DNA of 27,206 nt, taken from IMG/VR virus record IMGVR_UViG_3300048023_000090, positions 1-27,206 of that record; one strand, 5' to 3'. Shown piece by piece: positions 3,236 through 13,427 of the stretch. The stretch's first letter is position 1, and every line of letters starts with the position of its first letter. A model generated the notes under the pieces. It was given only the letters and a program-made list of their open reading frames with translations, ran no database searches and was not told the origin of the DNA. The translations under genes and the position numbers were made by a program. The DNA is from a virus.

Positions 3236-3646
3236 TTAATGTAGCTGGTCCTTGGGTTTACCCAATGAATTAATTTGATCGATTAGATCATCAAGCGTGG
3301 CATCTTCATCTATCATCGGGTCAAAATCATCCAGAGCGTCTAAGAAATCTAACCCCTCTCGTCTGTCTTCCATGTATCCCTCTGTCATCTTGAAGAATCC
3401 TTCGGTATACTGTTCATCCAAACCGCAGATGGTTATGATTTTACTTTGTTTTATTCTATAGGTTTCGTCGGTTGTAAAAGACAACCAAGGTCTCAACGAT
3501 AAAGCTTCGTGGGTAGAATTAATTTTTACTCTGGTTACTTCCAGCGGAATAGTCGTTTCAATATCGACTTCGTTTTCTGAGATGATACCAGCAATAAGCT
3601 GCATACCATTTTCTAAACAAATAATACTAGGTTTGCATTTTACCAT
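3236..3646 (-). CDS. Small acidic-tailed protein between uvsW and gp55
   Basis: This 136-residue protein of unknown function has an N-terminal half rich in beta strands (KPSIICLENGMQLIAGII, then DIETTIPLEVTRVKI), resembling a small Sm-like or OB-like barrel. The second half is very acidic and amphipathic. It contains GLDFLDALDDFDP near residues 98-110, followed by DDLIDQINSL. The gene overlaps the end of uvsW by 20 bp and lies just before gp55, the same slot as a small conserved gene in marine T4-like phages. The LDFL-containing acidic stretch resembles the clamp-binding tail of T4 gp55, so a role in late transcription or clamp contact is possible, but this is inference. Confidence 0.75.
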   Translation of the reverse strand: MVKCKPSIICLENGMQLIAGIISENEVDIETTIPLEVTRVKINSTHEALSLRPWLSFTTDETYRIKQSKIITICGLDEQYTEGFFKMTEGYMEDRREGLDFLDALDDFDPMIDEDATLDDLIDQINSLGKPKDQLH

Positions 3647-5563: not shown

Positions 5564-6154
5564 TTAGGTCACGTTTCTAATATTATATATCCTATATTTA
5601 AATGACGCCGATCCAGTGAAGTATGGTGAATCACCAGATGATTGATCGAATTCTAGTCCAGACAATGCAATTGGAAATGCGCCTCTAAAAATAATTTCAA
5701 TGTTTGGATTGTCATTTGAGTCAAGAACAAAGAGACTCGCATCACTTACCTGAGCGAGAGCCTCTCTCTTGTCTTTCCTGTTTGACAGACCCGTTCTCCA
5801 CTCCTGACTTGCAACATAATCTTTGTATTGTTGCGTACCTTCTGGTGCTCCAAGACCGACCAACCAATCGTAAAGTTCCTTGTAGTTTGACATATCCTCT
5901 TGGATAAGGAATCTAATATTCAGATCACCAAAGGTCAACTTATCGCCTGGATATGCGATATCCTGCAACGGGGTAGCTTGAGTAGGGAACCCCATACTAA
6001 TGTCTGGAATGTTTGCACCCTGACAGAAAAATGCAACGTGCGGAATGTTGTGAATCTGAAACTTAAACCCAGTGGGTCTCAGATAATCTAGATCACCGTT
6101 AGCATGTGCATTGTACAACCCCGTATTGGGCGACAGTGTGGGAGTGTAAGCCAT
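5564..6154 (-). CDS. gp19-like tail tube paralogue
   Basis: This 196-residue protein is related to T4 gp19-type tail tube proteins. It has a PTGFKFQIHNIPHVAFFCQG first-strand region, a PLQDIAYPGDKLTFGDLNIR block, and IQEDMSNYKELYDWLVGLG, the typical tube-fold EDxxNxxxLxxWL helix. It ends in a strand-rich TGSASFKYRIYNI segment. The canonical gp19 is a different gene at 12912-13427, so this is a second tube-fold protein, perhaps a tube initiator or baseplate adaptor as T4 gp54 is. T4-like marine phages carry such a gene between gp23 and uvsY. It has an AGGAG ribosome-binding site and its own TATAAATA late promoter at 6177-6184. Confidence 0.85.
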   Translation of the reverse strand: MAYTPTLSPNTGLYNAHANGDLDYLRPTGFKFQIHNIPHVAFFCQGANIPDISMGFPTQATPLQDIAYPGDKLTFGDLNIRFLIQEDMSNYKELYDWLVGLGAPEGTQQYKDYVASQEWRTGLSNRKDKREALAQVSDASLFVLDSNDNPNIEIIFRGAFPIALSGLEFDQSSGDSPYFTGSASFKYRIYNIRNVT

Positions 6155-6246: not shown

Positions 6247-6339
6247 TTACATCAGGATCATCAACAGAATAACAATTCCGGCTCCCATTCCGAGTGAGGG
6301 TAGGTGAACCTTACCAATTACGGGTACTTGCATTTCCAT
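6247..6339 (-). CDS. 30-residue single-pass membrane peptide
   Basis: A short frame reads MEMQVPVIGKVHLPSLGMG, then AGIVILLMILM and a TAA stop, 30 residues in total. It is preceded at good spacing by AAAGGAGAAGTAA, a strong ribosome-binding site, and by a CATAAATA late-promoter variant 38 bp upstream. A terminator follows directly. The last 14 residues are a hydrophobic stretch suited to crossing or anchoring in a membrane. Size and context suggest a late-expressed membrane peptide, possibly a lysis or envelope accessory factor. I do not recognise a family. A second in-frame ATG two codons in (6333) could also be used. Confidence 0.75.
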   Translation of the reverse strand: MEMQVPVIGKVHLPSLGMGAGIVILLMILM

Positions 6340-6377: not shown

Positions 6378-6385
6378 TATTTATG
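6378..6385 (-). promoter_or_regulatory. Late promoter variant CATAAATA, small membrane peptide
   Basis: The minus strand reads CATAAATA, one base from TATAAATA, in the gap between the beta-barrel gene stop (6391) and the small peptide start (6339). The position is right for a separate late transcript. Confidence 0.6.
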
Positions 6386-6390
6386 TTAAA

Positions 6391-6972
6391 TCATAGTTTG
6401 ATCTCAAAATGTGTACCAAGTACCGTCATTTTTTGGTCCCACCCCTCAGTACCCTTTCGTTCAATGAAAGGTGTGATCTTCCAGTTACCCTGTTTGTATG
6501 TAATACCTAACTGGTCTCTTGAATCAAACTTGGTGCCCGCATCCTTAAACGCCCAACGTGGTTGGAGTTTAGCATACAAATACCAATTACCGTACAGATG
6601 GGGAGTGTACTCAAAGATAAACCGATACCGCCAGTGATCTTCTTTCTTGTCAAATGACCGAAACTCCATCCTACCTTCTACTGTCAAGTCCTTATAGGAA
6701 AAGAACTCACCAGTAAACTTGATACGATTTTCCCTCGTATCTCTCAAGTCTGCATACCGATACATCACTTCGATTGGTCCAACCTTATTACCGATCTCAA
6801 CGTGCCAAGCACCTTCCCGATGTCGATAAGTGTATTCCCAATCATCCTGCTTTGCTTTATAATTATGTTCAGATGGTGCAGACATAACTAGCATAGGAAA
6901 TATCGTTGCTACCACAGCAATGATCGTGAAACTGATAACCAGCCCCCACTTCTCTCTCTTCTCTAGTGCCAT
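6391..6972 (-). CDS. Putative secreted outer-membrane beta-barrel protein
   Basis: This 193-residue protein has a signal peptide: positive N-terminus MALEKREK, hydrophobic core of residues 10-30, and an MSA|PS cleavage-like site near residue 32. The rest alternates polar and hydrophobic residues in strand-length blocks, for example HVEIGNKVGPIEVMYRYA, LTVEGRMEFRSF, HWRYRFIFEYTP, NWYLYAKLQPRWAF, QLGITYK and NWKITPFIE. It ends in a strand, LGTHFEIKL. Such a pattern is typical of small outer-membrane barrels (KdgM- or DUF2490-like in style). No specific family is claimed. The start at 6972 is preferred over ATG 7005, which lies only 7 bp from the late promoter and lacks a ribosome-binding site. 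It sits next to the strongly expressed capsid gene. Confidence 0.75.
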   Translation of the reverse strand: MALEKREKWGLVISFTIIAVVATIFPMLVMSAPSEHNYKAKQDDWEYTYRHREGAWHVEIGNKVGPIEVMYRYADLRDTRENRIKFTGEFFSYKDLTVEGRMEFRSFDKKEDHWRYRFIFEYTPHLYGNWYLYAKLQPRWAFKDAGTKFDSRDQLGITYKQGNWKITPFIERKGTEGWDQKMTVLGTHFEIKL

Positions 6973-7011
6973 GAGAAATACTCTTGTTGCGATGCAACAT
7001 TGCATCCATAA

Positions 7012-7019
7012 TATTTATT
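7012..7019 (-). promoter_or_regulatory. Late promoter variant AATAAATA, beta-barrel gene
   Basis: The minus strand reads AATAAATA, one base from the T4 late consensus, 39 bp upstream of the chosen ATG at 6972. The same variant precedes gp19 at 13454-13461, which supports its use in this phage. Confidence 0.65.
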
Positions 7020-7063: not shown

Positions 7064-7095
7064 CAAAAAAAAGGGACTCCGTAGAGTCCCTTAAA
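7064..7095 (-). terminator. Strong intrinsic terminator after gp23
   Basis: On the minus strand, a nine-base perfect stem AAGGGACTC/GAGTCCCTT (7092-7084 with 7079-7071) and a TACG loop run into eight T residues. It lies 26 bp past the gp23 stop and insulates the major capsid transcript from the beta-barrel gene. Confidence 0.92.
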
Positions 7096-7120: not shown

Positions 7121-8392
7121 TTACATCAAGTTTGAAACCTTAACAGCGCGGTAGTACTGGTTACGATCAGCAGTGAAAGTATCACCGTCAGTGTTACCAG
7201 AACCATCAACAACGTAAGGGTTAGCAATCATACCGTAACGAGTCTTGAAACCAATTTTTGGTTGGAAGGTGTCAGGGTCAATTGCGCGTACCATTTGCAG
7301 AGGTACATATGGGCAGTAGAACAGACCTGCGTCATAAGGTGAAGTACCCTTGTAACCAGCAACGTAGAACTGACTAGCAGCACCAGTGTTTGCAGAATAA
7401 GGATCAACGTAAACCTTGTAACGACCATTAAGTACACCAGCGAAAGTATTACCAGTGTCATCAACGTTTAGGTTAGTAGAAAGAGCAGGAGTGTAATCAA
7501 GTACACCAGCCATTGACAGGGCAGAAGCAACATCTGAAGAACAGATGATGAAGTTACCCTTACCGCGACGAGTGTCTTGCGCGATTACGTTCGCGTCTCT
7601 TTCGATGTTGAACAACAGACCCTTGAATCTTTCAACAGACCAGCGACCATTTGAATCTACGTCAAGGTCAAAAGTACCAGGCGTTGCAGTAGAAGCAGCA
7701 CCCGTCTTAGCGACTTTGTAGATTGTACGGATCACTTCGCGGTTGATTTCAGCGAGGATTTCCTGAGACAGAATGTTTGACAACTCTGACTCGGCGTCAA
7801 GACCGTGAACTGCCTTGAGGTCTTGCGCGAGTTCGACAGTATACTCTGCCTTCAGTGCGCGTGACTTAGCAGTTACAGTGGTCTTCTCAATTGAGAATGC
7901 CATCTGGTTCAGTGTAGTACCACCGGAATCACCGAATCTCTCAGCGTCATCACGCGACACACCAGCACCAGTAGTGTAGGAACCGTCAACTGGGTTTGAA
8001 CCAGCGTGAGTACCACCACCAGAGAAGTCTGTATCAGCTTCGTTGAACAGAGCTTCTGTACCAGTTTGTGAAGTGTAGTGCGACTTCATCGCAAAGATAA
8101 GACCAGTAGGACCAGTCATCGGTTGAACACCAGCAACGTCATACGCCATCAGGTTAGGAAGGGCGCGACGAACCAGAGAAATCAGGATCGGATCGTATGT
8201 ATCGATCTCACCTGACATGTTGTTAGCGTGTACCGCTTCAGAGAAAACATTCTTCTCTTCACGGAGAGCCTTTTCTTGGTTCTCAAGAACTACAGAAGTT
8301 ACTGCCTTACGATAAGGGTCAGCAATCTCTTGCAGATCGGGATGATCCAGAACAGGACTCCACTTTTTTTGTATTTCTTCAGAAAGATACAT
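7121..8392 (-). CDS. 23: gp23, major capsid protein
   Basis: This 423-residue protein is the T4-type HK97-fold major capsid protein. It matches T4 gp23 (521 residues) in blocks: RRALPNLMAYDVAGVQPMTG (T4: RRAIPNLIAFDICGVQPMNS), PTGLIFAMKSHY, the MAFSIEKTTVTAKSRALKAE segment, YTVELAQDLKAVHGLDAE, EILAEINREVIR, GKGNFIICSSDVASAL, FAGVLNGRYKVYVDPY and GFKTRYGMIANPY. It is shorter than T4 gp23, mostly in the region after residue 110 where T4 has an insertion domain, and in the N-terminal propeptide. gp23 is normally cleaved by gp21 during maturation. It has an AAGGAG ribosome-binding site, a perfect late promoter, and a strong terminator behind it, a one-gene high-output unit. Confidence 0.97.
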   Translation of the reverse strand: MYLSEEIQKKWSPVLDHPDLQEIADPYRKAVTSVVLENQEKALREEKNVFSEAVHANNMSGEIDTYDPILISLVRRALPNLMAYDVAGVQPMTGPTGLIFAMKSHYTSQTGTEALFNEADTDFSGGGTHAGSNPVDGSYTTGAGVSRDDAERFGDSGGTTLNQMAFSIEKTTVTAKSRALKAEYTVELAQDLKAVHGLDAESELSNILSQEILAEINREVIRTIYKVAKTGAASTATPGTFDLDVDSNGRWSVERFKGLLFNIERDANVIAQDTRRGKGNFIICSSDVASALSMAGVLDYTPALSTNLNVDDTGNTFAGVLNGRYKVYVDPYSANTGAASQFYVAGYKGTSPYDAGLFYCPYVPLQMVRAIDPDTFQPKIGFKTRYGMIANPYVVDGSGNTDGDTFTADRNQYYRAVKVSNLM

Positions 8393-12911: not shown

Positions 12912-13427
12912 TTATCCCACATCGTAATGTGAGTACTGCCAAGTCACCGTAAATTCTTCAAAAATATCATTCTGTGCATAATTCAATGCGATTTCTGACA
13001 TCTGAATAGGGAAGGCATTGCGTAGTGTATACTGACCACCAGGCAATACTACATCATTACGATCCAGATGTTCAACAACGATGTCGGTCTGATAGTCACG
13101 GGGTGTAAGAACACCAGTGTTATCAGCACGATCATTCAGACCATTCATCCACTGTTCAAATGGAGCCCTGAGACTGAATTCAGAATCATTTACAACCGTA
13201 ATGGTCCACGGATCAAAGATTCTTTCTCCTGCCAACTTAACCTCGCGACCCCTATACTGGATGATCGCGGGGTTGACGTTTGAAGCAGGCAATGCGGCGC
13301 CAGTTACGAGCAGACTGTAAGAAGTGTCAACACCAACCACATAGCCGGGAAACGCGAGTTTCACCCTAAACTGGTTGGGACGAGCACCTCCGGCGCCAAG
13401 TCTTGCCTTAAACTCTTCAATATTCAT
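12912..13427 (-). CDS. 19: gp19, tail tube protein
   Basis: This 171-residue protein matches T4 gp19 (163 residues), the subunit of the rigid inner tail tube. It has the N-terminal RPNQFRVKLAFPGYV segment, ALPASNVNPAIIQYRGREVK, the AGERIFDPWTITVVNDSEFS block and the LRAPFEQWMNGLN helix. The strand-rich C-terminus includes LRNAFPIQMSEIALNY and FTVTWQYSHY. It lies directly after the sheath gene gp18, the usual order. An AGGAG ribosome-binding site precedes the ATG at a slightly long spacing. Its late promoter is the AATAAATA variant. Confidence 0.95.
   Translation of the reverse strand: MNIEEFKARLGAGGARPNQFRVKLAFPGYVVGVDTSYSLLVTGAALPASNVNPAIIQYRGREVKLAGERIFDPWTITVVNDSEFSLRAPFEQWMNGLNDRADNTGVLTPRDYQTDIVVEHLDRNDVVLPGGQYTLRNAFPIQMSEIALNYAQNDIFEEFTVTWQYSHYDVG

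Follow-up and report, generated by a model that had tools for sequence, protein, structure and literature searches.

The gene at 6391–6972 of the window (the whole 27,206-nt stretch of viral DNA that was analysed, IMG/VR record IMGVR_UViG_3300048023_000090) is probably cargo of a marine T4-like phage, encoding a small anion porin of the outer membrane that would speed the entry of phosphate into the infected cell and thereby feed viral DNA synthesis. What is new here is its genomic context: in other viral contigs the barrel repeatedly adjoins phosphate-transporter-like genes. The features of the window that bear on this proposal are collected in Table 1.

Table 1. Features around the barrel gene, in window coordinates
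Feature	Position	Strand	Basis and remarks
gp23 major capsid protein	7121..8392	minus	phrog_138, 1.2e-159; upstream neighbour, one edge of the cargo site
Hairpin followed by a T-run, terminator-like	7065..7092	minus	sequence inspection; after gp23, separates gp23 from the barrel gene
ATAAATA, T4-type late promoter element	7012..7018	minus	upstream of the barrel gene
Barrel gene	6391..6972	minus	product of 193 aa, predicted to fold as a KdgM-type barrel of about 12 strands; proposed porin for phosphate or other anions
N-terminal signal-like segment, alternative type, residues 1–31	6880..6972	minus	occupies the place of the PiT-like gene and conventional signal peptide of sister phages
Small ORF, 30 aa, one hydrophobic stretch	6247..6339	minus	own ATAAATA at 6378–6384
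gp19-like tail-tube paralogue	5564..6154	minus	phrog_45, 3.9e-35, and empty-site comparison; downstream edge of the cargo site

The barrel ORF is a real gene under purifying selection. Its dN/dS relative to the barrel of locus L005 is 0.046 (loci compared with the window are designated by L numbers), and in each of the five pairs compared the differences are concentrated at third positions of codons. The initial annotation had located the gene correctly; it is read from the minus strand, the plus strand across the same positions being interrupted by stops. Counted from the ATG at 6972 the product has 193 residues and ends in IKL. A second in-frame ATG, at 7005, follows the ATAAATA element by no more than 6 nt, and the start at 6972 is therefore preferred.

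The 31 N-terminal residues are signal-like but unusual. The same alternative N-terminus is found in 16 of 65 barrel loci (a count that excludes L045); the remaining 49 have different N-termini, mostly conventional signal sequences. Thus the signal peptide announced by the initial annotation holds as far as the signal-like character of the segment goes, but its type is not the ordinary one. No origin of this segment apart from the barrel was found in the loci compared.

The predicted structure of the product gives good support to an outer-membrane-type beta-barrel. The AlphaFold2 model, made with an alignment of 25 sequences, has a mean pLDDT of 88 and a pTM of 0.72; it comprises an N-terminal helix and then about 12 strands, i.e. 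more than the “eight or so” first counted. Foldseek of this model against the PDB returned mainly beta-barrel membrane proteins, and VIA-align ranked KdgM-type porins first: KdgM (4fqe; Z 15.8, rmsd 2.4, 149 residues), then NanC (2wjr; Z 15.0) and VhGalP (8xua; Z 14.2), the other barrels being at 13.3 or less. For these three matches 149–154 residues are aligned with an rmsd of 2.4–3.0 and 10–12% identity. The predicted model also has the size and strand number of the KdgM family (12-stranded barrel, about 170–210 residues). In the BFVD fold search the top matches, with E-values no better than 1.5e-3, were porin-like proteins, some named and others not, for the most part from uncultured phages. 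The outer-membrane barrel suggested at the outset is thus borne out by structure prediction and by searches against barrel structures, which give it a KdgM-type fold. The caution expressed at the same time about recognition by BAM, because the chain ends in IKL, extends to the whole family, whose C-terminal residues are L, I, F, M or P; BAM may still insert barrels with such ends.

Lumen- and lipid-facing positions were assigned through the hydrophobic phase of the strands, not through the model coordinates. Defined in this way, the lumen phase carries 21 Arg/Lys versus 12 Asp/Glu in 65 positions, and the mean majority frequency is 0.886 at lumen-phase versus 0.737 at lipid-phase positions of the barrel. 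A lumen phase that is both basic and better conserved favours an anion pore with an important interior; the barrel would therefore be anion-selective. These counts agree with the basic, anion-binding lumen of the KdgM family; the barrel may bind anions as well. Against this reading, 3 of 24 barrels have a mature protein with a negative net charge. The barrel thus resembles KdgM, NanC and VhGalP in predicted fold, size and basic lumen phase, but it differs from them in being phage-encoded and in being linked to transporters of phosphate type, not of sugar type.

The barrel family was found here only in uncultured viruses. A single-sequence search gave 45 barrel loci and a profile search 63 viral contigs, and iterating the barrel HMM over the retrieved loci brought zero extra members. 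No match was obtained by tblastn of the barrel against 50,697 cultured-phage records. In the genome_contigs collection (84,980 species) the barrel was found in two MAG contigs (one MAG labelled Neomarinimicrobiota) and nowhere else. Against Pfam, PHROGs and PDB sequences the matches were weak and scattered, the lowest E-value (0.0022) corresponding to a designed TIM barrel. Neither the window protein nor any of 25 members matched PF06178 (KdgM) in Pfam with an E-value of 10 or less, a negative limited by the HMMER filters, which discard most weak matches.

The neighbours of the barrel in five loci belong to one membrane-protein family (60–86% identical), and HMM searches over 182 loci revealed the same family adjoining the barrel in many more. 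Because some contigs occur more than once among the 182 loci, we counted clusters, defined at 95% identity. Of 32 non-redundant barrel clusters, 15 have this neighbour adjacent and in the same orientation. The 32 were retrieved via the barrel sequence alone and retain those with cut flanks (L039, L045 and L076 among others); including the divergent barrels of L160, L179 and L182, retrieved by PiT, the proportion is 18/35. Counted by locus it is 30/65. The gene lies before or after the barrel, mostly overlapping it or less than 100 nt apart, and in L063 and L070 the barrel stop and the start of the neighbour have one base in common. It is missing from 21 of the 22 barrel-bearing records scanned whole, most of which are fragments; the absence of a phosphate transporter from viral contigs therefore says little.

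We call this neighbour PiT-like, and not PiT, because its score for Pfam PHO4 (PF01384) is under the curated cut-off: one protein in five matched, with an E-value of 5.5 and 6.3 bits versus 33.7. A profile search against the PDB gave no matches for it. Its predicted model (18 relatives, pLDDT 78.6) has the PiT fold: the match to TmPiT (6l85), a sodium-dependent phosphate transporter, reaches a Z of 20.0 by VIA (rmsd 4.0, 285 residues), the next one being at 6.3, and the two Foldseek matches under 1e-3 are both chains of 6l85 (5.3e-4). The motifs AND.. / HDMAN.. and PVSTS / PMSTT, which we take to be the signature of the two homologous PiT halves, are invariant or almost so in the alignments. 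The internal-repeat test, made by hhalign of the two halves, gave a probability of 0.4% (E 0.14).

The PiT-like family is present in at least 455 viral contigs, which suggests that uncultured viruses commonly carry genes for phosphate import; against the 50,697 cultured-phage records the protein gave no tblastn match. The 80 PiT loci retained out of these contigs (L103–L182) are mostly devoid of this barrel. Secreted OMP-like proteins, defined by a home-made signal-peptide rule and a last residue F, W, Y, L or I, represent 22/112 of the proteins adjacent to phage PiT-like genes versus 2/339 of the distant ones, these figures being distinct sequences and not independent events, in a set that includes the barrels themselves (L108, L110, L179, L180 and L182), PstS proteins ending in L and a few probable false positives (MEAKDPEE type). 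This comparison shows an enrichment of secreted proteins; it does not tell how many barrel families there are. At positions 2858–4162 of L144, heme oxygenase-like and ferredoxin-dependent bilin reductase-like genes stand directly upstream of the PiT-like gene.

One further cluster of the 32 has another kind of transporter next to the barrel. In L066 and L098 the barrel is directly followed by a PBP_like_2 protein (PHROG “phosphate transporter subunit”) and a BPD_transp_1 permease, then by a second gene of PHROG “phosphate transporter subunit” and an ABC ATPase, a gene set that reads as a pstSCAB-like operon. Beyond it lie UDP-glucose dehydrogenase-like and PRPP synthetase-like genes, both also seen near the PiT-like gene in other contigs. 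L098 is contig C57 (335 kb), the larger of the two MAG contigs, L097 being the smaller. A bacterial origin of the barrel was considered and rejected for this larger contig, which carries phage genes: since capsid, portal and sheath genes are present on it, C57 is probably a jumbo T4-like phage mis-binned as Neomarinimicrobiota, not a host source.

Gene neighbourhood and lumen charge are what points to phosphate as the substrate of the barrel. Against this, in 16 of the 32 barrel clusters the adjacent genes include no phosphate-transporter-like one, and members of the PiT family are able to transport anions other than phosphate, as CysP does with sulfate. For these two reasons the main rival is a general anion porin, or one specific for other anions (sulfate, acidic oligosaccharides, nucleotides, organic phosphates), inorganic phosphate not being its main substrate. 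Sulfate permeases belong to the PiT superfamily, and the porins that match the model best are carriers of acidic sugars, as is the case of KdgM and NanC. For VhGalP, acidic-sugar transport is given by the title of PDB 8xua. We nevertheless judge this broader anion porin unlikely: the barrel has two unrelated types of transporter beside it, PiT-like and Pst-like, both phosphate systems by family, and PstS is found near the PiT-like gene in 8 of the 80 PiT loci.

A porin for phosphate would act as follows. Made late in infection, the barrel would be exported by Sec and inserted by BAM in the outer membrane, where its Arg/Lys-rich lumen would speed phosphate into the periplasm. An inner-membrane carrier would then move it to the cytosol, and the extra phosphate would feed viral DNA synthesis, to the presumed benefit of the phage. 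In many relatives this carrier would be the phage’s own PiT-like protein or Pst-like system. In phages like that of the window it would perhaps be the host’s, none being seen in the 27-kb fragment; a PiT-like gene may also lie elsewhere in this phage, beyond the fragment.

The proposed passage of anions or phosphate across the outer membrane, before transport by Pst or PiT, is reminiscent of PhoE and OprP, the phosphate-starvation porins, which are trimeric, 16-stranded, host-encoded and under PhoB. Unlike them the barrel is small and has about 12 predicted strands; its gene is preceded by a late promoter element of phage type, and nothing resembling a Pho box was found near it. In the whole window a single Pho-box match with 3 mismatches is present, versus 3.87 expected, far from the barrel. 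Among phage phosphate-acquisition genes, pstS of cyanophages is long known (PMC3686209), and pit and other pst genes are reported in soil phages (PMC10987575). In these two papers such genes are, as proposed for the barrel, cargo thought to raise the phosphate uptake of the host, but their products act in the periplasm or the inner membrane. The words “porin” and “PhoE” have no occurrence in the main text of PMC10987575. No phage outer-membrane phosphate porin was found in the literature searched, mostly papers outside subscription, which leaves its absence from print unproven. If phages do own such a porin, viruses would be remodelling the outer membrane, too, so as to let nutrients in, and a function would be given to this gene family of uncultured viruses.

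The barrel behaves as mobile phage cargo: its presence varies at a fixed site and it has spread between phages. Among 60 gp23–tube sites of related loci, 5 contain the barrel and 55 do not. In L186–L189, whose gp23 is 99–100% identical to that of the window, the site is empty and the gap is only 103 nt. In L036 and L073 (gp23 95% identical) the order at the same place is gp23–PiT–barrel, versus gp23–barrel in the window. In L224 the barrel is 98% identical, yet gp23 is 85% and the tube 66% identical; the barrel gene therefore moves between phages.

The alternative N-terminus corresponds to a local exchange. L073 was aligned with L047, whose genes are 99–100% identical to those of the window. 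The upstream flanks match up to just before the first ATG; about 99 nt with the alternative N-terminus are then found in L047, versus the PiT-like gene and the ordinary barrel signal peptide in L073. L058 and L060 differ by the same exchange, both flanks being 98–99% identical. Barrels with the alternative N-terminus have an adjacent PiT-like gene in 0/16 cases, versus 30/49 for the others. We lean, with somewhat less assurance than for the porin itself, towards a two-membrane phosphate import route built by marine phages, which would combine a phage-specific outer-membrane anion porin with a PiT-like or PstSCAB-like inner-membrane system; the porin would be its mobile core, kept when the partner is replaced by the alternative signal segment. 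If this is correct, the outer membrane would limit the phosphate supply of infected small marine bacteria.

In the window the barrel gene lies within a T4-like block (gp17 to gp23 homologues, UvsY and a UvsW-type helicase) and, as the initial annotation had it, beside the capsid gene. ATAAATA, presumably the T4-type late promoter consensus, has 13 matches in the window versus 4.67 expected; 12 of the 13 are on the minus (coding) strand and several stand just upstream of late genes. Because of this excess on the coding strand and of the copy upstream of the barrel, the latter seems to have its own late promoter, in agreement with the late expression first assumed. The 30-aa ORF downstream is also found in L185, which is without the barrel, and is therefore probably a separate cargo.

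Such a location in a virion-gene block, together with the late promoter element, would suit a lysis helper or a virion component merely resembling a porin. We consider this highly improbable, since the barrel is missing in 55 of the 60 related loci with the same capsid and tail-tube genes, adjoins clamp-loader and DNA-polymerase genes in other phages, and has a signal-like N-terminus. The late promoter element and the outer-membrane barrel fold would also suit a protein that masks receptors or excludes superinfecting phages at the outer membrane during the late phase of infection. Phage-encoded outer-membrane barrels are indeed known, namely the lambdoid Lom and the porin Lc of PA-2. Moreover, Melnitz and pelagimyophages encode the CsgGF pore, according to PMC9004378. 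The barrel has in common with Lom, Lc and CsgGF that all are phage-encoded outer-membrane pores or barrels, but these are different proteins, for which no link to phosphate transporters was seen here. An exclusion role appears quite improbable: it leaves unexplained why the barrel adjoins PiT-like and Pst-like genes, in both orders, and why the lumen phase is conserved and the lipid phase more variable, and a barrel 98% identical in L224 with a gp23 of only 85% would be unlike a phage-specific exclusion factor. Thus, among the roles initially put forward, help in lysis and blocking of superinfection or re-adsorption received no specific support, the neighbourhoods in relatives pointing to phosphate uptake; altered permeability stands only insofar as any porin forms a channel, and has no specific support otherwise.

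By the gp23 of the window, the closest cultured relatives are two phages, Melnitz of Methylophilales (70%; host OM43) and the pelagiphage HTVC008M (68%; host SAR11). The T4-like block contains two tail-tube (phrog_45) paralogues, the one bordering the cargo site and another at 12912–13427. The small gene at 3236–3646, which adjoins that of the UvsW-type helicase, has phrog_471, labelled “methylamine utilization”, as its best PHROG.
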